From a virus, in IMG/VR virus record IMGVR_UViG_3300030012_003463, positions 1 to 58,048 of that record: a DNA stretch of 58,048 nt, one strand, 5' to 3'. How positions within the stretch are numbered: position 1 is the first letter of the stretch; each line of letters begins with the position of its first letter. The notes beneath the pieces are model-generated. The model searched no databases, was not told the DNA's origin, and saw only the letters and a program-made list of their open reading frames with translations. Below, one piece after another: positions 3,778 to 47,403 of this stretch. The position numbers were made by a program, and so were the translations under genes.

Positions 3778-4055
3778 TAGTGTAATGTTAAACTATTTTT
3801 AGGTGTTTGCAACTTACTAATTTGAGTAGTTATATAGGTGTCTGCAATATACTCTCCATAAGCATCTACCATTGCTTCACGACTCATACTTAACATAACT
3901 TGAGCTAATTCAACAAGATCTACTCCTTTTGCTGCTTGATCTTGAACAAAGTCCCTTGTTTCGTTAATTATTTTTTGAACACGTGCTTCTGTTTTTTTAT
4001 CTATCATATCCATAATGTAATATGGCTTAGGCACTTTTTCTACTCTTCTTTTCAA
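3777..4055 (-). CDS. Hypothetical helical protein
   Basis: 92 residues beginning MKRRVEKVPKPYYIMDMIDK and mostly helical after residue 18 (ARVQKIINETRDFVQDQAAK, LAQVMLSMSREAMVDAYGEY). It overlaps the 3' end of the small basic gene at 4027-4170 by 29 bases in another frame. Unknown function, head-operon position. Confidence 0.5.
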   Translation of the reverse strand: MKRRVEKVPKPYYIMDMIDKKTEARVQKIINETRDFVQDQAAKGVDLVELAQVMLSMSREAMVDAYGEYIADTYITTQISKLQTPKNSLTLH

Positions 4056-12306: not shown

Positions 12307-12342
12307 TTGACACCATGTACCCATATGGTACTTTAAATTATC
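12307..12342 (+). promoter_or_regulatory. Promoter with overlapping dyad operator, upstream of the ribozyme leader
   Basis: A perfect -35 TTGACA (12307-12312) is followed after 16 bases by TACTTT (12329-12334) or after 20 by TTAAAT. The spacer holds the inverted repeat GTACC-CATAT-GGTAC (12317-12331) nested with ACCAT...ATGGT, placed exactly where a repressor would block RNA polymerase. Transcription would start near 12343 and run through the leader and ribozyme into the cassette genes. The -10 choice is uncertain. Confidence 0.5.
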
Positions 12343-12479
12343 TTATTTTATAAGATAGACCGAACGGGGGACCGGCGAACAAATAGACCCCAAGTCTAAA
12401 GGGCGAACTGGTAAGAAAACAGAGACACTTATTAAGAGGGTATCGCAGAGGATGCCACACCACCGGGAACAGTTACAAA
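12343..12479 (+). promoter_or_regulatory. Structured RNA leader upstream of hammerhead
   Basis: 137 nt without an ORF. Visible structure: hairpin AGAC-CCCAA-GTCT (12385-12397), whose CCC loop could pair with the G run at 12366-12370; hairpin GGUAUC-GCAGAG-GAUGCC (12439-12456); repeated CGAAC in GGCGAAC at 12374-12380 and 12402-12408 and CGAAC at 12361-12365. Compact, non-coding and base-balanced unlike the neighbouring A/T runs. It may be an aptamer or a folding guide for the ribozyme; no known riboswitch recognised. Confidence 0.4.
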
Positions 12480-12563
12480 CTCCAAAGCTATACTGATGAG
12501 GCCTTAATGGCCGAAACACAACACGGCGGGATATTCTCCCGCCAGTGTCTATGGCAATAGGAG
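12480..12563 (+). ncRNA. Type I hammerhead ribozyme
   Basis: Core read directly: CUGAUGA (12493-12499), stem II GGCC-UUAAU-GGCC (12500-12512), GAAA (12513-12516), stem III ACAC (12516-12519) with GUGU (12545-12548), cleavage base C (12549), cut before U12550. Stem I pairs GCUAUA (12487-12492) with UAUGGC (12550-12555), then an internal loop AAA/AAUA, then CUCC (12480-12483) with GGAG (12560-12563). A nested hairpin GGCGGGA/UCCCGCC (12525-12543) caps stem III. Every conserved core position, the 10.1-11.1 G-C pair and the 15.1-16.1 A-U pair are present; the stem I internal loop opposite loop II is as in fast natural hammerheads. The outer part of stem I hides the Shine-Dalgarno of the next gene. 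Confidence 0.92.
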
Positions 12564-12573
12564 GCCATTTATT
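12525..12573 (+). promoter_or_regulatory. Cassette leader 1 (cleavage site + SD-loop hairpin, AUGGC type)
   Basis: Hairpin GGCGGGA/TCCCGCC, then GTGTC (12545-12549), T, then ATGGC (12551-12555), loop AATAGGAG, GCCAT (12564-12568), start codon at 12574. The loop carries the Shine-Dalgarno. This copy is the cis substrate strand of the hammerhead. After cleavage the mRNA would begin at 12550 with a 5' hairpin, 24 nt before ATG. Confidence 0.9.
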
Positions 12574-12891
12574 ATGACTAAATTTGACACTCAAACTCAA
12601 TACAACGCAGCAATCGCAGCACTTGGTAAACACTTCAATGATGAGATGGACGGCAACGTTTACATTACTTCCTCTTACATTGTAGAAGCCAAGAACGCTT
12701 TCTTACTTGCTAACTATCTTAACGGTCAAGATACAATGCCAAGAGAACATGTCTTTCAGATTATCGAAGACAATGTTCCTAACTTCTACAAAGAAGTTGC
12801 TGAGATTTACGAAAACATCGACAGCATTAACCGTCAAAGATTAGACGCTTACAAAGATTATCTAAATAACCAAGGCGTCAAAATAAACTAA
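12574..12891 (+). CDS. Cassette gene 1, hypothetical acidic helical protein
   Basis: 105 residues, beginning MTKFDTQTQYNAAIAALGKH. Mostly alpha-helical (YIVEAKNAFLLANYLNGQ, NFYKEVAEIYENIDSINRQR), no membrane segment, no recognised motif. It is the first gene downstream of the ribozyme, with its Shine-Dalgarno GGAG in the ribozyme's stem I. It may be an early protein that acts on the host, judging from size and place, but nothing in the sequence shows a function. Confidence 0.75.
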   Translation: MTKFDTQTQYNAAIAALGKHFNDEMDGNVYITSSYIVEAKNAFLLANYLNGQDTMPREHVFQIIEDNVPNFYKEVAEIYENIDSINRQRLDAYKDYLNNQGVKIN

Positions 12892-12897
12892 ATACTA

Positions 12898-12942
12898 GGG
12901 GCCGCAAGGCCCCAGTGTCTGTAGCATGGGAGGCTACTTATT
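12898..12942 (+). promoter_or_regulatory. Cassette leader 2 (GNRA hairpin + cleavage-like site + SD-loop hairpin, GUAGC type)
   Basis: Hairpin GGGGCC-GCAA-GGCCCC (12898-12913, GNRA tetraloop), A, GTGTC (12915-12919), T, GTAGC (12921-12925), loop ATGGGAG, GCTAC (12933-12937), ATG at 12943. The stem differs from leader 1 at two paired positions, each compensated on the other side. Confidence 0.85.
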
Positions 12943-13464
12943 ATGAGAAAGAACAGAAGAAGAAAAAACAAAAAATTCAAAGTAACTTTATCAATGCCAA
13001 GACTAACTAATGATCCTTATGTAGAGAAACAGTTGATCAAGGCCACTCACTTTTTTGGTAAAGAGTTGATGTCAACAAGAATGCTAAACACCATCAGCAT
13101 CAAACTAAAAGTAAGAAAGACTACTCTAAAAGATTTTTCCGGAGCGGTCGTAAGTTACTGTAAAGGTTCTGAAAAACAAACTGAGTATGAAATTCTTTTA
13201 GACTACAACTTACCAACTCACGCTCTAATAGAAATTCTTGCTCACGAGATGCAGCATGTGCAGCAGATGGTTACTGGCAGACTTCAATACAGAGTATGGA
13301 AATCTGATCGTCAGCTTCATGCACGATGGGAAGGTAAAGAGGTAGGAACTGTTAATTCAATTCCTTATCGTCAAAGACCTTGGGAAGTTGAAGCATACTC
13401 AACTCAAACACCTTTATTCAAAAAGTATGAAAAACATACTTTAAAAACTAGGGGCTTTTTTTAG
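12943..13464 (+). CDS. Cassette gene 2, zincin-like metallopeptidase (HExxH)
   Basis: 173 residues. A very basic N-terminus (MRKNRRRKNKKFKVTLSMPR) is followed by a compact domain with LIEILAHEMQHVQQMVTGRL around residues 100-120: HEMQH is the HExxH zinc site. A downstream E in PWEVEAYSTQTPLF is well placed as third ligand, as in SprT/WLM-like and minigluzincin proteases. Could cut host or phage proteins, or be a DNA-bound protease. The stop codon lies in the 3' arm of the hairpin of leader 3. Confidence 0.65.
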   Translation: MRKNRRRKNKKFKVTLSMPRLTNDPYVEKQLIKATHFFGKELMSTRMLNTISIKLKVRKTTLKDFSGAVVSYCKGSEKQTEYEILLDYNLPTHALIEILAHEMQHVQQMVTGRLQYRVWKSDRQLHARWEGKEVGTVNSIPYRQRPWEVEAYSTQTPLFKKYEKHTLKTRGFF

Positions 13465-13501
13465 CCCCTGGTTGTGTCTATGGCATAGGAGGCCATTTAT
13501 T
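13451..13501 (+). promoter_or_regulatory. Cassette leader 3 (AUGGC type)
   Basis: Hairpin GGGGC (13451-13455) / GCCCC (13464-13468) includes the stop codon of the previous gene. Then GTGTC (13474-13478), T, ATGGC (13480-13484), loop ATAGGAG, GCCAT (13492-13496), ATG at 13502. Confidence 0.85.
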
Positions 13502-13870
13502 ATGAATAACGATCACATAACAGTAACATACAAAAGCGAAACAGATAACAATGACAACTATTACTTTCAAGTTTACAGACTTGAGGATGATGGTTTCAAA
13601 ATCAAAAACTTTTTAGACGGTGTTAAATTTAAAACTCCGGAAGAAGCAAACAATTGGATATACAAAAATTATCCAGATGAAGACGATTATCTTTTCATGG
13701 GTGTTATGCAAATTCCAAACAAACTTCCGGAACATTGGCATCATCCTTTTACTGCTTCTCTAAGCACTGAAGCTTTTTATCAGCACAATAGAGATAACGG
13801 TATCAACGCTGCGATCAACTGGACCAAAGATAAAAAGAGAGATCAATATATAAAAGAGCAGGGCGCATAA
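13502..13870 (+). CDS. Cassette gene 3, hypothetical
   Basis: 122 residues starting MNNDHITVTYKSETDNNDNY. The start is fixed by the SD-loop hairpin 6 bases upstream; a longer frame exists upstream but runs through the hairpins. Alternating beta segments (YYFQVYRLEDDGFKIKNFLD) and an aromatic/His segment (LPEHWHHPFTASLSTEAFYQ). No recognised family. Its stop TAA is in the loop of the following hairpin. Confidence 0.7.
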   Translation: MNNDHITVTYKSETDNNDNYYFQVYRLEDDGFKIKNFLDGVKFKTPEEANNWIYKNYPDEDDYLFMGVMQIPNKLPEHWHHPFTASLSTEAFYQHNRDNGINAAINWTKDKKRDQYIKEQGA

Positions 13871-13914
13871 GCGCCTTGTTCTTGAGTGTCTATGGCATAG
13901 GAGGCCATAAAATA
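13855..13914 (+). promoter_or_regulatory. Cassette leader 4 (AUGGC type)
   Basis: Hairpin GGCGC-ATAA-GCGCC (13862-13875), extended by wobble and Watson-Crick pairs out to 13855/13882, with the preceding stop codon in the loop. Then GTGTC (13886-13890), T, ATGGC (13892-13896), loop ATAGGAG, GCCAT (13904-13908), ATG at 13915. Confidence 0.85.
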
Positions 13915-14241
13915 ATGTGCGAACACAAGTACGATAAAGAATGTGATGTTCGTTATGCTGATCTAGGTGTCTTTGTAAAAGACTGGAAGGCACTAGATAG
14001 AAGACTCAGCATGACTGACGAAACTAACGCTTGTATTCTTTGTGGTAGAGATACCTCTACACAAAAAAATTATTTTTACACAATTGGTTTGGGATCACCT
14101 TACCATGCATCTCACAAAGATGATTACGATAACTGTGAGAGAAGCGGCGGATTTATGGGAGAGTATCCTATCGGGTCTGAGTGTGTAAAAAAAGTCATCA
14201 AAGCAGGATTTGGTGACTATGTTTACAAGTCTAATAAATAA
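13915..14241 (+). CDS. Cassette gene 4, Cys-rich putative zinc-binding protein
   Basis: 108 residues from MCEHKYDKECDVRYADLGVF. Cysteines and histidines occur as C.H.....C near the start and ACILCGRD in the middle, with further C and H (YHASHKDDYDNCERSGG, GSECVKKV), compatible with one or two zinc sites. Start chosen 6 bases after the SD-loop hairpin. Function unknown. Confidence 0.7.
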   Translation: MCEHKYDKECDVRYADLGVFVKDWKALDRRLSMTDETNACILCGRDTSTQKNYFYTIGLGSPYHASHKDDYDNCERSGGFMGEYPIGSECVKKVIKAGFGDYVYKSNK

Positions 14242-14247
14242 TTTTAT

Positions 14248-14295
14248 GGGAGCCTTTTTGGCTCCCAGTGTCTATGGCAATAGGAGGCCATCAAT
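14248..14295 (+). promoter_or_regulatory. Cassette leader 5 (AUGGC type)
   Basis: Hairpin GGGAGCC-TTTTT-GGCTCCC (14248-14266), A, GTGTC (14268-14272), T, ATGGC (14274-14278), loop AATAGGAG, GCCAT (14287-14291), ATG at 14296. Same sequence as leader 1 from the cleavage site to the end of the hairpin. Confidence 0.87.
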
Positions 14296-14751
14296 ATGAA
14301 ACTACCAAGTAATCTTAAAATCAAACTACCTAACATTAACTCAGTAGGTTCTTTAAACGCTTTTATGAAAGCAAGAACTTACTACCCTAGCAATATGTTA
14401 GAGGTGGGAACACCGGCCACAATTCACATGTGGTCAGATACCCACGCGGCAACGGTCCAGGAAGTCGTACAGACTAAAGCGGGCCGTACTTACCTTAAAG
14501 TCACAGAAGACGATAAGGTGGTGATCGAAAAAGCTAAAAGCTATAGCGATCAGCCTAAATATAAATTCACTCCAAACCCTAACGGGAGAGAGTGTTGGGG
14601 CGAGGTTGTCTTCTTTAAAGACGACAAAGAAGAGTTAGCTTTCTTAATTAAGAGGGCTGCTTATAACTATAAAACCAAGCGTTTTGTAAAAGACGGTTGG
14701 GCTATAGTTAGCCTCGGTGATCGTCGCGAATATCGCGACCCTCACTTCTAA
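14296..14751 (+). CDS. Cassette gene 5, hypothetical
   Basis: 151 residues, MKLPSNLKIKLPNINSVGSL at the start. Beta-rich middle (PATIHMWSDTHAATVQEVVQ, RTYLKVTEDDKVVIEKA) and a charged C-terminus. Codon use is less AT-rich at the third position around 14410-14500 than in neighbours (GCGGCAACGGTCCAGGAAGT), which may mark a different origin. No family recognised. Confidence 0.7.
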   Translation: MKLPSNLKIKLPNINSVGSLNAFMKARTYYPSNMLEVGTPATIHMWSDTHAATVQEVVQTKAGRTYLKVTEDDKVVIEKAKSYSDQPKYKFTPNPNGRECWGEVVFFKDDKEELAFLIKRAAYNYKTKRFVKDGWAIVSLGDRREYRDPHF

Positions 14752-14760
14752 AAATTTTCC

Positions 14761-14809
14761 GGAGGGTCTTATGGCCCTCCAGTGTCTATGGCATAGGAGG
14801 CCATTAATT
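14761..14809 (+). promoter_or_regulatory. Cassette leader 6 (AUGGC type)
   Basis: Hairpin GGAGGG (14761-14766) / CCCTCC (14775-14780) with inner U-G and C-G pairs and loop TTAT. Then GTGTC (14782-14786), T, ATGGC (14788-14792), loop ATAGGAG, GCCAT (14800-14804), ATG at 14810. Confidence 0.85.
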
Positions 14810-15151
14810 ATGAAAACACCAAAAACAATTGTTCACGTTAATCAGCACATGATTAAGTATAACCAAAAAAATAAAACTGAGTTTCCAGTTTTAACTGTGA
14901 AGCATAGAGGTAAGACTTACTATGCTCACGAAATAACTTATCACGGTCATTCAAAGACTGTTTATTCACCAAACAAACCATTAAGTTGTGGTGCTGTTTG
15001 TTGGGTTGAGACGGATTGTGATGCCACTCTTTACGACTGGACTGCAATTCACCAGGATAAGTATAAACATCCTTCTATCAAACAAGAGCGCAAAACAGTG
15101 CGCCACGTTGGTAGTAAAAAATGGATGGATATGGATATCCATACTAGATAA
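14810..15151 (+). CDS. Cassette gene 6, hypothetical
   Basis: 113 residues starting MKTPKTIVHVNQHMIKYNQK. Beta-rich with many His and Tyr (HRGKTYYAHEITYHGHSKTV) and two Cys in SCGAVCWVETDC. The start is set by the SD-loop hairpin; longer upstream frames pass through the structured leader. Function unknown. Confidence 0.7.
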   Translation: MKTPKTIVHVNQHMIKYNQKNKTEFPVLTVKHRGKTYYAHEITYHGHSKTVYSPNKPLSCGAVCWVETDCDATLYDWTAIHQDKYKHPSIKQERKTVRHVGSKKWMDMDIHTR

Positions 15152-15156
15152 TTATA

Positions 15157-15212
15157 GGGAGGGAAAATTAAATTTCCCTCCCAGTGTCTGTAGCAATAGG
15201 AGGCTACTTATT
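15157..15212 (+). promoter_or_regulatory. Cassette leader 7 (GUAGC type)
   Basis: Long hairpin GGGAGGGAAA (15157-15166) / TTTCCCTCCC (15173-15182), A, GTGTC (15184-15188), T, GTAGC (15190-15194), loop AATAGGAG, GCTAC (15203-15207), ATG at 15213. Confidence 0.87.
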
Positions 15213-15482
15213 ATGAATAACATTAAAAATGTAATACGAAAAATAGCACAAAGTGATGGTGGTGAAACTTTATCTAAAAGATATTCATTAAGACTTTTTG
15301 CAGTCGAGGATATCTTAAAAGATTATTTTCCAAACATCATTAAAAGAGAGACTCACAGCGATCACAAAAAAATTGTCTACAAAGAAATCGCAAAAGCATT
15401 TGAAGTAAAATTATCAGATGTAAAAAAAGCTGCAAAATATGCAGCGCAAGAAAAGTTAGACGATTTAGTTAAAGCTATATAA
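15213..15482 (+). CDS. Cassette gene 7, hypothetical helical protein
   Basis: 89 residues from MNNIKNVIRKIAQSDGGETL. The second half looks like a helical DNA- or protein-binding unit (YKEIAKAFEVKLSDVKKAAK), with an ARID/HTH-like spacing of short helices, but no firm match. Start set by the SD-loop hairpin. A small regulator is possible. Confidence 0.65.
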   Translation: MNNIKNVIRKIAQSDGGETLSKRYSLRLFAVEDILKDYFPNIIKRETHSDHKKIVYKEIAKAFEVKLSDVKKAAKYAAQEKLDDLVKAI

Positions 15483-15493
15483 ATACTTCCCGC

Positions 15494-15553
15494 GAGGCGC
15501 GGTCCTCCCACCGCGTCTCACTAAGTGTCTGTAGCAATAGGAGGCTACCAAAA
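15494..15553 (+). promoter_or_regulatory. Cassette leader 8 (GUAGC type)
   Basis: 10-bp hairpin GAGGCGCGGT (15494-15503) / ACCGCGTCTC (15510-15519), one G-U pair; then GTGTC (15525-15529), T, GTAGC (15531-15535), loop AATAGGAG, GCTAC (15544-15548), ATG at 15554. Here the hairpin is 5 nt, not 1 nt, from the site. Confidence 0.85.
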
Positions 15554-15721
15554 ATGAAACAAAAATTATTACAACACGATATTGAGAGAGAGTTAGAAGG
15601 ATTAACATTTGATGAACTTTCTCAAATAGCAATGTTAATTAATGAAATGTATTCCAAGTCTAACGGAAAACCTACATTAATTTTTAATTTGTTTAATTAC
15701 ACAAAGGAGAGCGAGCAATGA
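15554..15721 (+). CDS. Cassette gene 8a, small hypothetical protein
   Basis: 55 residues, MKQKLLQHDIEREL at the start and FNLFNYTKESEQ at the end, helical and acidic. Its TGA overlaps the ATG of the next gene (ATGA), so the pair is translationally coupled and forms one two-gene cassette. Function unknown. Confidence 0.6.
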   Translation: MKQKLLQHDIERELEGLTFDELSQIAMLINEMYSKSNGKPTLIFNLFNYTKESEQ

Positions 15722-15936
15722 AACATTTAAAGCAGTATCAAAAAGATAGGTTAGCTAATGAAATCTACGATTTTATTTTAAAAGATGTAGATGGTAATTA
15801 TCACATGGCCATCTGGTTTCAGCATAACATTGCATACTTAAAACCAGAGAAGCTTACAGAGATGCATAAAGATATGCTCTCTAAAAAAGAGGTTCGTAAA
15901 AAAGAAAAAATACGAGCAATTAATCAAGGCACTTAA
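15718..15936 (+). CDS. Cassette gene 8b, hypothetical
   Basis: 72 residues from MKHLKQYQKDRLANEIYDFI, with a basic C-terminus (MLSKKEVRKKEKIRAINQGT). A GGAG lies 12 bases before the ATG inside the upstream gene. The stop TAA sits in the loop of the next hairpin. Unknown function. Confidence 0.65.
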   Translation: MKHLKQYQKDRLANEIYDFILKDVDGNYHMAIWFQHNIAYLKPEKLTEMHKDMLSKKEVRKKEKIRAINQGT

Positions 15937-15977
15937 CGTGCCTTGGTTGTGTCTATGGCAAAAGGAGGCCATACGTT
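15922..15977 (+). promoter_or_regulatory. Cassette leader 9 (AUGGC type)
   Basis: Hairpin of 11 pairs with core CAAGGCAC-TTAAC-GTGCCTTG (15925-15945), stop codon of the previous gene in the loop. Then GTGTC (15949-15953), T, ATGGC (15955-15959), loop AAAAGGAG, GCCAT (15968-15972), ATG at 15978. Confidence 0.85.
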
Positions 15978-16253
15978 ATGAACACAATAAATATAGTAGA
16001 AGAATATGGTAAAGACATCCAGAAGAGAGAAGCAACTCCAAAAGAAGCTGCTCTTGTTTATGTTATGGAAGAAATAAGAAGAGCCGGATCACATCTTTCT
16101 GATCAAGTGACAAACAAACATCAGAAAAAATTCGTGATTGCTCTTGCTAAATTTCATAACCAGATCGCTAAAGATTTTAAAGGTGATTGGGAACCAATGG
16201 ATATCGACTTGATTGGCAAATACATTGATCAACAAATGAATGAACAATCATGA
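15978..16253 (+). CDS. Cassette gene 9a, hypothetical helical protein
   Basis: 91 residues, helical (PKEAALVYVMEEIRRAGSHL, KKFVIALAKFHNQIAKDFKG), no membrane segment. It overlaps the next gene by 4 bases (ATGA). No known family recognised. Confidence 0.65.
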   Translation: MNTINIVEEYGKDIQKREATPKEAALVYVMEEIRRAGSHLSDQVTNKHQKKFVIALAKFHNQIAKDFKGDWEPMDIDLIGKYIDQQMNEQS

Positions 16254-16438
16254 CCATAACAAATCAAGACGAACTTGAGATCGTACTGCGAGCAGTATCA
16301 AGACACGTTGATAGTTTAAGAAATGATTTGGACGCGGGTTTTACACCTATTACTACAAACATTCTTAAAGACGATCTAAAAATCTCAGAGCAACTTTTAA
16401 AAAAACTGAGAAAAGAAATACAGTCCAGGGCTTCATAG
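16250..16438 (+). CDS. Cassette gene 9b, small coiled-coil protein
   Basis: 62 residues, a single long amphipathic helix region (LEIVLRAVSRHVDSLRNDLD, LKISEQLLKKLRKEIQSRAS). Coupled by ATGA overlap to the upstream gene. Its stop TAG lies in the following hairpin. Function unknown. Confidence 0.6.
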   Translation: MTITNQDELEIVLRAVSRHVDSLRNDLDAGFTPITTNILKDDLKISEQLLKKLRKEIQSRAS

Positions 16439-16477
16439 CCCTGGGTTAGTGTCTGTAGCAATAGGAGGCTACTTATT
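16425..16477 (+). promoter_or_regulatory. Cassette leader 10 (GUAGC type)
   Basis: Hairpin CCAGGGCT-TCAT-AGCCCTGG (16425-16444) covering the stop codon of the previous gene, then GTGTC (16449-16453), T, GTAGC (16455-16459), loop AATAGGAG, GCTAC (16468-16472), ATG at 16478. Identical to leader 7 from the site to the start codon. Confidence 0.87.
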
Positions 16478-16657
16478 ATGGAAAGAATAATTACAGTAAA
16501 AATAAAAAACGTATATGGAAATGACTTAATTTATCCTATATGTGAAAAAGCCAAAAAATTTTCAGCACTTGTTGGAAAGAAAACTTTTAGTCGAACTGAG
16601 GTCTCTTGGATCAAAGACTTAGGTTTTGAAGTAAAAGTGGAGGCACAACAATTATGA
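16478..16657 (+). CDS. Cassette gene 10a, small hypothetical protein
   Basis: 59 residues, MERIITVKIKNVYGNDLIYP then CEKAKKFSALVGKKTFSRTE. Beta-alpha pattern; basic. Its TGA overlaps the start of the next gene (ATGA). Function unknown. Confidence 0.6.
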   Translation: MERIITVKIKNVYGNDLIYPICEKAKKFSALVGKKTFSRTEVSWIKDLGFEVKVEAQQL

Positions 16658-16893
16658 ACAATAACTGCGAATGTTATGGTAAAGGGTATGAAAAGAAAAA
16701 ATATCAAAATTTATTTTTTATTTCTCATTGCTCTGACTGTGGACTTTTTGACAATGACCAGGAAGCTTATGAAGAGGCCTGTCGATATGACTGGGACATT
16801 TATATGCAAGAGCAAAATAGATGTGCAAAAGGATTTACGATTGTTCCTTATGCTCTTCAACGTGGTGTCAAAAAAATAAACATAATCAAATAA
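16654..16893 (+). CDS. Cassette gene 10b, Cys-rich protein
   Basis: 79 residues, MNNNCECYGKGYEKKKYQNL, then ISHCSDCGLFDNDQEAYEEA and further C residues. CEC plus HCSDC gives a possible zinc site. It is the last gene of the cassette block and is followed by a strong hairpin at 16900-16924. Function unknown. Confidence 0.65.
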   Translation: MNNNCECYGKGYEKKKYQNLFFISHCSDCGLFDNDQEAYEEACRYDWDIYMQEQNRCAKGFTIVPYALQRGVKKINIIK

Positions 16894-16899
16894 AATGAG

Positions 16900-16924
16900 G
16901 GGGCCCGACTACCATTCGGGCCCC
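16900..16924 (+). terminator. Strong hairpin closing the cassette block
   Basis: GGGGCCCGA (16900-16908), loop CTACCAT, TCGGGCCCC (16916-16924). It has no T run and is followed by TGTTGTC and an AAAGGAGGGA that recall the cassette leader but lack GTGTC and the paired stem. It probably protects the 3' end of the last cassette mRNA rather than terminating transcription. Confidence 0.6.
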
Positions 16925-17087
16925 TGTTGTCAATGAAAGGAGGGAATGTTCACTTGTTGAACACCTAATATTATAGTGTATTTAAAAATATTTTCTCTAA
17001 AAAAATTTTATATATTTCGTTGAAAAAAATATAAAAACACACAATACATATATAAGAAATAAATTTAATTTTTTTGAAAAAAAAATG
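16925..17087. other. AT-rich non-coding stretch
   Basis: Contains a small hairpin TGTTCA-CTTGT-TGAACA (16948-16964) and long A/T runs, with no gene. With the next features it forms the 610-bp gap between cassette gene 10b and 17505. Confidence 0.4.
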
Positions 17088-17117
17088 TTGAATTTTTCGG
17101 GATTGGCCCGATATAGT
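17088..17117 (+). promoter_or_regulatory. Promoter for the tRNA-like RNA transcript
   Basis: -35 TTGAAT (17088-17093), 18-bp spacer, -10 TATAGT (17112-17117). Start of transcription would be near 17124, just before the structured RNA, and the next intrinsic terminator is at 17422-17445, giving a transcript of about 320 nt. Confidence 0.5.
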
Positions 17118-17149
17118 TATTAGAGAATGAAATTAGAGAGGAAATACAA

Positions 17150-17361
17150 GAGAACTTAAAACAAAATTAGGTTGCAAACTATTTTGCGGCACTCTGACTG
17201 AATAACGATTTTAAAACAGAGTCGTAAGGTACAGGGCCCAAGAAGTATGGACAAATGTCTGAGGTCTTGGGAAGTAGGTTCGAGTAGATGAAGATAAACT
17301 ATCTGTTCTACCGAAAGTTGTGGGTAGCAAGTTCAAATCCCACGAGTGCCCTTAAGTTCTC
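17150..17361 (+). ncRNA. Structured RNA with tRNA-like acceptor and T-arm
   Basis: Outer stem GAGAACTTAA (17150-17159) / TTAAGTTCTC (17352-17361), 10 perfect pairs. Inside: hairpin GCAAA-CTAT-TTTGC (17174-17187); a 7-bp acceptor-like helix GGCACTC (17188-17194) / GAGTGCC (17344-17350); directly before its 3' strand a T-arm-like GTGGG (17320-17324) ... TTCAAAT (17332-17338) CCCAC (17339-17343). A 7-nt insert TAGCAAG separates GTGGG from the T-loop. The middle folds into hairpins ACGATTTT/AGAGTCGT, CCCAAGA/TCTTGGG and AGATA-AAC-TATCT. Too long for a tRNA and without a D-arm; it may be a reduced tmRNA, a tRNA mimic or an attachment site copied from a host tRNA. Confidence 0.6.
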
Positions 17362-17394
17362 TTGCTTTTCAAGAATAATAACAAGGAGGCTATT

Positions 17395-17424
17395 ATGATT
17401 GTAATAGTTATCGACGACTGGTAG
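17395..17424 (+). CDS. Nine-residue ORF (leader-peptide-like)
   Basis: ATG at 17395 with a perfect AAGGAGG five bases upstream encodes MIVIVIDDW and stops at TAG (17422-17424), whose bases are the first of the terminator stem. The flanking ATAATA/TATTAT can present the Shine-Dalgarno in a loop as in the cassette leaders. A ribosome finishing this ORF would cover the terminator stem, so it could act as an attenuator; the run of Ile/Val codons may be the sensor. Confidence 0.4.
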   Translation: MIVIVIDDW

Positions 17425-17445
17425 CCCTTCGGGGCTATTTTTTTT
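17422..17445 (+). terminator. Intrinsic terminator with UUCG tetraloop
   Basis: TAGCCC-TTCG-GGGCTA (17422-17437) followed by eight T (17438-17445), a textbook rho-independent terminator. It ends the transcript with the tRNA-like RNA. Confidence 0.88.
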
Positions 17446-17446
17446 A

Positions 17447-17475
17447 GTGTCTATAGCAAATATTTTGTTATAATA
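17447..17475 (+). promoter_or_regulatory. Degenerate cassette leader 11 (site without SD loop)
   Basis: AGTGTC then TATAGC (17452-17457), which is the exact Watson-Crick complement of the ribozyme arm GCUAUA. TATAGC can pair with GTTATA just downstream, but the loop is AAATATTTT without GGAG. The gene after it (17505) uses its own AAAGGAAAG. Confidence 0.55.
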
Positions 17476-46968: not shown

Positions 46969-47403
46969 TTAATAAGTAATACTGTGCGCAGTGAGATAGT
47001 TAGTTCTCGCTGTGTTTGCAGTTGAGGTAGCATTTGCTTGAGAGTCTGCATCTCCCGCCATGGCATCATCAAAAGCTGTTTGCCAAGCATCTTGAGCTTC
47101 ACATCTTATAACAACGTTAGTTGCCCATTGAGGAAAAGAAGATAAAGATTCATTTTCTCTGTTATCAACATACTCTAACTTGCCAGTGTTTGTAGTAGCA
47201 TTCCACTGCATAGCGTGAACATTAGCATCAATCTCAGTATGTGATCGAATATTTAAGTAAGACTTGTTGTCAATCATAACATCGGATTCAGTATCCCCTG
47301 TACCTAATCTAGGTCCATTATTCTCGTTATCAACGTTTACGCCTGCATCAAAAATAATTGTTATTCTTGAGTTTGCTGTTGTGTTATTTACTGTTGTTGC
47401 CAT
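46969..47403 (-). CDS. Tail-fiber-associated protein, possible assembly chaperone
   Basis: 144 residues. Beta-rich N-terminus (RITIIFDAGVNVDNENNGPR), and a helical C-terminus (EAQDAWQTAFDDAMAGDADS) similar to tail-fibre assembly domains. Overlaps the next gene's start by 20 bases. Function inferred from position next to the fibre gene. Confidence 0.5.
   Translation of the reverse strand: MATTVNNTTANSRITIIFDAGVNVDNENNGPRLGTGDTESDVMIDNKSYLNIRSHTEIDANVHAMQWNATTNTGKLEYVDNRENESLSSFPQWATNVVIRCEAQDAWQTAFDDAMAGDADSQANATSTANTARTNYLTAHSITY

Follow-up and report, generated by a model that had tools for sequence, protein, structure and literature searches.

An array of small genes in a marine-phage-type genome is headed by a single hammerhead ribozyme motif, and the subject here is the relation of that motif to eleven short sequence elements distributed along the array. 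The stretch of DNA that was analysed (the window) is 58,048 nucleotides (nt) long, positions 1 to 58,048 of IMG/VR record IMGVR_UViG_3300030012_003463, and makes up most of that 59,147-bp viral record. Ahead of each of ten gene cassettes lies the same module, consisting of a GC hairpin, the sequence GUGUC, and a URURGC hairpin that holds the Shine-Dalgarno (SD) sequence GGAG in its loop. From sequence comparison and modelled folding we infer cleavage at these modules by one and the same hammerhead, which, acting in trans or over a long range in cis, probably processes the whole operon. Three features of the sequences appear to favour this reading over its rivals: the co-occurrence of core and sites, the invariance of the enzyme's pairing arms next to a covarying stem II, and the nature of the changes that are tolerated at the sites.

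The enzyme strand and its sites

The enzyme strand is complete (CUCC-AAA-GCUAUA-CUGAUGA-[GGCC UUAAU GGCC]-GAA-ACAC, positions 12480-12519) and precedes the ten-cassette array. Its parts and the eleven sites are as follows.

12480..12492, plus strand: enzyme stem I arm CUCC-AAA-GCUAUA, for substrate recognition, pairing with GGAG and URURGC of the sites
12493..12519, plus strand: hammerhead catalytic core, comprising CUGAUGA, stem II (GGCC-UUAAU-GGCC), GAA and the stem III arm ACAC; A15.1 is 12516
12545..12568, plus strand: site 1, GUGUC / UAUGGC with SD hairpin; predicted cut 12549/12550
12915..12937, plus strand: site 2, GUGUC / UGUAGC with SD hairpin; predicted cut 12919/12920
13474..13496, plus strand: site 3, GUGUC / UAUGGC with SD hairpin; predicted cut 13478/13479
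13886..13909, plus strand: site 4, GUGUC / UAUGGC with SD hairpin; predicted cut 13890/13891
14268..14291, plus strand: site 5, GUGUC / UAUGGC with SD hairpin; predicted cut 14272/14273
14782..14804, plus strand: site 6, GUGUC / UAUGGC with SD hairpin; predicted cut 14786/14787
15184..15207, plus strand: site 7, GUGUC / UGUAGC with SD hairpin; predicted cut 15188/15189
15525..15548, plus strand: site 8, GUGUC / UGUAGC with SD hairpin; predicted cut 15529/15530
15949..15973, plus strand: site 9, GUGUC / UAUGGC with SD hairpin; predicted cut 15953/15954
16449..16472, plus strand: site 10, GUGUC / UGUAGC with SD hairpin; predicted cut 16453/16454
17447..17457, plus strand: site 11 (terminal), GUGUC / UAUAGC; predicted cut 17451/17452

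All of the characteristic core nucleotides of a hammerhead (C3U4G5A6N7G8A9, G12A13A14 and the A15.1-U16.1 pair) are present, in CUGAUGA/GAAA at 12493-12516 and the U at 12548, and there are three helices, with covariation contributed by stem II. Scores with the Rfam models lie below gathering (15-18.5 bits against 48.5 for RF00008; 17.1 against 56.3 for RF03152). The gathering score is a detection threshold and not a structural definition, and the split stem III of this motif falls outside these models. Judged on its sequence, the motif qualifies as a hammerhead in its core, its cleavage triplet and its helices, even though the Rfam models miss it.

The original prediction placed GUGUC-U and its arm at eleven coordinates, all of which are correct: the window's 11 exact matches to GTGTCTRTRGC are these sites, and 14 matches with at most one mismatch are found where shuffled sequence yields an expected 1.45. 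A search by the rules of the enzyme rather than by consensus (four stem III pairs, U16.1, H17 other than G, and six stem I pairs including G-U, on both strands of the 58 kb) returns 12 places, namely the eleven sites and one chance match at 47186. The proposed pairing of ACAC with GUGU and of GCUAUA with URURGC thus holds at every site, and the assertion that only site 1 has a core in cis stands as well, CUGAUGA/GAAA with a four-pair stem II occurring just once in the window, at 12493-12516. The additional pairing of CUCC with GGAG needs qualification: GGAG lies 3' of the arm at sites 1-10 and is absent at 17447. So does the count of nine further sites, which is right for SD-hairpin sites beyond site 1 and becomes ten core-less sites when 17447 is included. 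This terminal site has a terminator-like hairpin upstream and a hairpin without an SD sequence next to it, and matches the enzyme arm with Watson-Crick pairs throughout.

Conservation in related arrays and rival readings

When IMG/VR is scanned for the site, for the enzyme arm and for an arm-agnostic hammerhead pattern, the cassette array turns up in about 20 marine viral contigs besides the window. A single core is present in all 18 others in which the start of the array is assembled (whole-contig and collection scans), for a total of 19 cores read with the window's own, and no contig with an assembled array start has sites without a core. The contigs in which a core is not seen are accounted for by missing DNA: L056 has ten N at 3874-3883, exactly in place of the hammerhead core, L062 begins inside a site, and L058 and L064 are truncated at the contig end. 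Co-occurrence in related contigs had been suggested as a check, with retention of sites after loss of the core as the damaging outcome; wherever the DNA is assembled, core and sites are found together. The N gap of L056 may reflect strong structure or strain variation that perhaps broke the assembly. L064 is a 3 kb phage-like contig with six cassette sites and the terminal site, binned with a Bdellovibrionota metagenome-assembled genome; it is probably phage DNA that strayed into the bin, or else it hints at the host. A scan of the genome collection gave only singletons besides it. In what was read of the cultured relatives chosen by PolA, HTVC023P (read whole), HTVC027P, DSL-LC04 and 023Pt_psg01 (at most 50 kb of each), there is neither core nor array.

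What is conserved at the sites was delimited by a search for SD hairpins in 23 related regions that made no use of GUGUC or of the arm sequence. Directly upstream of 118 of the 121 hairpins found in this way is [G/T]TGT-H-T, with H17 being C at 111 places, U at five, A at two and G at none, as the NUH rule specifies. Information content, taken over 65 non-redundant sites, is near its maximum from the G of GUGU through the A that follows URURGC and drops at once on either side, where the flanks diverge. The conserved block, GUGU-H-URURGC-A, spans -4 to +7 around H17 and is made up of a 4-nt stem III side, H17, a 6-nt stem I side and one A, which is the length of a hammerhead substrate strand. 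Exceptions within arrays are confined to H17 (two changes of C to A and five of C to U), the last base of the arm (in a family without SD hairpin) and, once, the first G; U16.1 is unchanged at every array site. The sole occurrence of GUGUG is at one homologous coding position that lies outside the arrays, and when the site pattern is loosened from GUGUC to GUC only chance matches are added.

More than 20 further sites lack the SD hairpin and carry the block nonetheless. They include the terminal site, present without SD hairpin in eleven contigs (the window among them), three related non-coding cassettes (L026, L052 and L055) and two others (L013 and L053); one gene family has lost its SD hairpin and retained GUGUCURUAG. 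That GUGUC-U is not explained by the SD hairpin, as had been contended, is therefore borne out from both directions, by hairpins found blind that have it and by hairpin-less sites that keep it. In L026 (7581), L052 (5646) and L055 (6960) the site is followed by conserved AAGGUAAACCAU.AAGGGGUAGG...UUUUACCC, which by its sequence resembles a small structured RNA more than a gene.

These properties bear on a reading in which the leader acts as an antisense RNA, its arm covering URURGC and GGAG and blocking ribosomes at all cassettes, with catalysis reserved for maturation at site 1. The stem I arm does pair with the SD sequence at every site that has one, and regulatory small RNAs typically have an unchanging seed opposite targets that vary. 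Repression would have no need of U16.1, nor of GUGU and H17, both 5' of the SD sequence, yet these are conserved at all sites, and sites devoid of any SD sequence are retained; we regard this explanation as very improbable.

The six-nucleotide arm of the site varies within narrow limits. Its three free letters are only ever AUG, GUA or AUA, both at 98 sites of related records and at all 43 from the IMG/VR-wide scan, and the resulting arms, UAUGGC, UGUAGC and UAUAGC, rank in the top four when the 1024 possible arms are ordered by how well they pair with the enzyme. The fourth, UGUGGC, which would form two G-U pairs, is absent where 9.6 occurrences are expected under independence (Fisher p about 1e-7). 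Within eight families of homologous cassettes the arm class differs; in each switch the hairpin partner compensates, and the changed base is always one that faces a U of the enzyme. On the enzyme side, CUGANGA/GAAA is unbroken in 19 of 19 cores, and the stem I arm CUCC-AAA-GCUAUA is identical in all of them except that of L027, which has one A fewer. Stem II shows compensatory double changes at three of its four pairs (all 180 cells paired; none of 500 shuffles scores as high), stems I and III are nearly invariant and accordingly show little covariation of their own, and in the hammerhead alignment stem I varies on the site side only. The enzyme arm does not even compensate for its own site 1, GCUAUA being kept whether that site is UAUGGC or UGUAGC. 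An invariant arm that serves three classes of site is what a shared enzyme predicts and what a ribozyme acting only in cis does not.

The last point weighs on the reading that the hammerhead cuts only its adjacent site 1, while some other factor, a phage or host protein or an RNase, binds GUGUCURURGCA at each cassette. Site 1 does hold the whole motif in cis, RNAalifold recovers a cis hammerhead there, and a protein site would likewise generate a short conserved block. Set against this are an enzyme arm that stays constant opposite a changing site 1 while stem II covaries, a cis stem III that is predicted to pair weakly, and a block that has the limits of a hammerhead substrate and tolerates the changes that such a substrate allows (A or U at H17, R opposite U); nor do we know of a factor that binds this sequence. 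This reading is unlikely, though less so than the antisense one.

Least probable of all is that the element has no RNA function, being a promoter, a recombination site or a duplication remnant copied with the cassettes. The cassettes are certainly modular, 52 open reading frame families occurring behind one short, repeated element. A purely DNA-level or historical origin nonetheless sits poorly with compensatory changes in the hairpins, with restriction to one strand (the block has no match on the opposite strand in related arrays), with substitutions that resemble those of a substrate, with strict co-occurrence with a covarying catalytic core, and with a 12-nt block that stays intact amid divergent flanks.

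Predicted folding, proposed processing and setting of the operon

If one hammerhead serves all the sites, whether it does so in trans or by looping within one transcript becomes a question for folding. The enzyme's own GUGU, in the ensemble predicted for the isolated segment, pairs next to the GC hairpin and not with the catalytic ACAC: a second ACAC with the hairpin (12521..12543) is predicted to capture it, leaving the catalytic arm free. Folded in isolation, 18 of the 19 cores give the A15.1-U16.1 pair a probability no higher than 0.1, and that of L027 gives it 0.23; for other phage hammerheads from the same scans the value is 0.44-0.88 in nine of ten, the tenth (L036, 0.2) having an uncertain stem III. 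The enzyme arms are mostly unpaired in the predicted folds and complementary to all sites, and cofolding with the enzyme strand gives a complete trans hammerhead as the minimum-free-energy complex at 13886 and 15525. Predicted folding thus leans towards trans over long-range cis.

Several considerations weigh against a shared hammerhead. The cofolding minima at most sites are competing structures, the trans stem III has only 4 bp, stem I (-9.4 to -11 kcal/mol) must form in competition with the SD hairpin (-3.5 to -5.5), and the stem I arm is partly occluded in the fold predicted for the L009 group; folding takes no account of tertiary contacts, and the energies come from short segments. The absence of UGUGGC could stem from a limit on the strength of the SD hairpin. 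Exceptions at H17 are few, so that the avoidance of G is consistent with the NUH rule without being significant. Finally, all contigs with the array belong to one fairly close clade (terminases 86-100% identical), and with shared site ancestry the counts are not independent events.

Features that surround the enzyme strand and the sites are these.

12307..12334, plus strand: putative sigma70-type promoter of the leader/cassette operon, TTGACA-16-TACTTT (from sequence)
12338..12479, plus strand: 5' leader RNA ahead of the ribozyme, structured, with a hairpin at its 5' end and more covarying helices (RNAalifold)
12521..12543, plus strand: second ACAC and GC hairpin (ViennaRNA folds, partition function)
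12898..12913, plus strand: GC hairpin immediately 5' of site 2, the 3'-end hairpin of the preceding cassette
13450-13469, 13862-13875, 14759-14782 and 16425-16444, plus strand: further GC hairpins before sites

As we picture the process, the structured leader would carry one enzyme strand with its substrate arms, CUCC-AAA-GCUAUA and ACAC, held open. Pairing of ACAC with GUGU, of GCUAUA with URURGC and of CUCC with GGAG would complete a type I hammerhead fold, and each module would be cut after H17. In trans, the leader RNA would act once the cut at site 1 had freed it, or from within another transcript to which it was still joined; the alternative is looping within one transcript. The upstream product would be an mRNA ending in a stable hairpin and GUGUC with a 2',3'-cyclic phosphate, the downstream product a 5'-OH mRNA beginning with the hairpin that presents the ribosome site. 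Refolding of the SD hairpin would displace from the product the enzyme arm that otherwise covers the SD sequence. The GC hairpin ends 0-1 nt 5' of GUGU at 47 of 65 non-redundant sites (median z -3.46), so that a cut would furnish each cassette mRNA with a 3'-end hairpin and a 5' SD hairpin, structured ends that may stabilise it. A stronger version makes the hammerhead a trans-acting, multiple-turnover enzyme: a small RNA of the phage that, after its release, would cut at all cassette junctions of the accessory-gene operon, and in the next transcript as well, by way of an 11-nt code. This version is held with less assurance than operon processing itself, though we consider it the better bet.

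The leader is conserved in structure, its several covarying helices showing double changes in an RNAalifold comparison of ten relatives, and has no Rfam match; as a single sequence, 12338-12575 has a z-score of -3.1. A different type of leader occupies the same place in L010, L013, L027 and L053. The promoter pattern TTGAxx-16-TAxxxT recurs in nearly all contigs that share the window's leader type and no similar one was found in L010, L013 or L027; a scan with a stricter consensus gave no match to the promoter-like sequence at 12307-12334. The array is a run of small plus-strand genes, one or two to a cassette, transcribed in the direction away from the terminase. Terminase, DNA polymerase A and a UvrD-like helicase are the marine-phage-type genes of the window, and the nearest cultured relatives of PolA are in Pelagibacter and other aquatic phages (48-53% identity). 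The cassette region has no blastn match in phage records. The gene at 12943-13464 is weakly similar, at scores below the Pfam cut-offs, to families of putative metallopeptidases (DUF6782, M91), and between the cassette array and the terminal site at 17447 lies a manA RNA-like structured RNA (17173-17353; RF01745, 38.9 bits, E 1e-8, with the gathering score of 55.2 not reached).

Relation to known processing systems

If processing by one hammerhead is real, an RNA enzyme runs operon processing in a living system, and this would be the first natural hammerhead ribozyme found to act on many separate targets. Phage hammerheads would gain from such a system a concrete function. New genes could join the operon by carrying the shared 11-nt substrate code, and engineered trans hammerheads would acquire a natural model, product release included. 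The relation of enzyme to substrate is disclosed by the pattern of selection: one invariant arm, and dozens of sites that vary only as that arm tolerates.

RNase III, a host protein, cuts the early mRNA of phage T7 between cistrons and leaves structured ends; processing of an early phage polycistron would be common to both systems, with a host protein as the enzyme there and a phage RNA proposed for it here. RNase P is a natural RNA enzyme with many separate substrates, and is alike in this respect; it has a protein partner, cuts hydrolytically to leave a 5'-phosphate, and has a fold unrelated to the hammerhead. The open-access literature yielded no report of one hammerhead serving many sites, and no natural small self-cleaving ribozyme acting other than in cis. 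The arm-agnostic IMG/VR scan turned up other hammerheads but no second many-site system. In L061, a core at 14934-14964 has the same GCUAUA arm and no recognisable adjoining site, with a second, complete hammerhead about 210 nt downstream. In the cultured Pelagibacter phage Jormungand EXVC012P (L074), ArdA genes are followed, at about 6010, by an ordinary type I hammerhead-like motif of the cis kind, whose cleavage triplet is GUA.

The window motif shares with type I hammerheads, including RAGATH-1 (RF03152), the CUGANGA/GAAA core, the NUH triplet, three helices, closed loops II and III and an open stem I. It differs from them in that the stem III pairs are discontinuous with the loop III hairpin and predicted to be open. 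A newt-type double hammerhead was set aside for it because the GC hairpin lies inside stem III. The discontinuous hammerhead of the mammalian Clec2 3' untranslated region likewise has enzyme and substrate strands distant in sequence; it is intramolecular, with a single substrate and a long insertion in helix I (PMC6155905), and so does not have the one-to-many arrangement.

The closest comparison is with the hammerhead clusters of prophages, which flank genes, are active in vitro and in E. coli, and have been proposed to cut long RNAs of phages down to mRNAs of gene length (Perreault et al. 2011, PMC3088659). Two other contigs resemble that arrangement: L050 has five CUGANGA/GAAA cores, each before a gene, in the classical many-ribozyme manner, and L039 has two complete hammerhead-like cores, likewise each before a gene. 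The phage setting and the position of hammerheads before small genes are alike. In the prophage clusters, however, each cut has a complete ribozyme of its own, whereas here a complete ribozyme does not stand at each processing site: there is one core per genome, and in the window it faces ten core-less sites.

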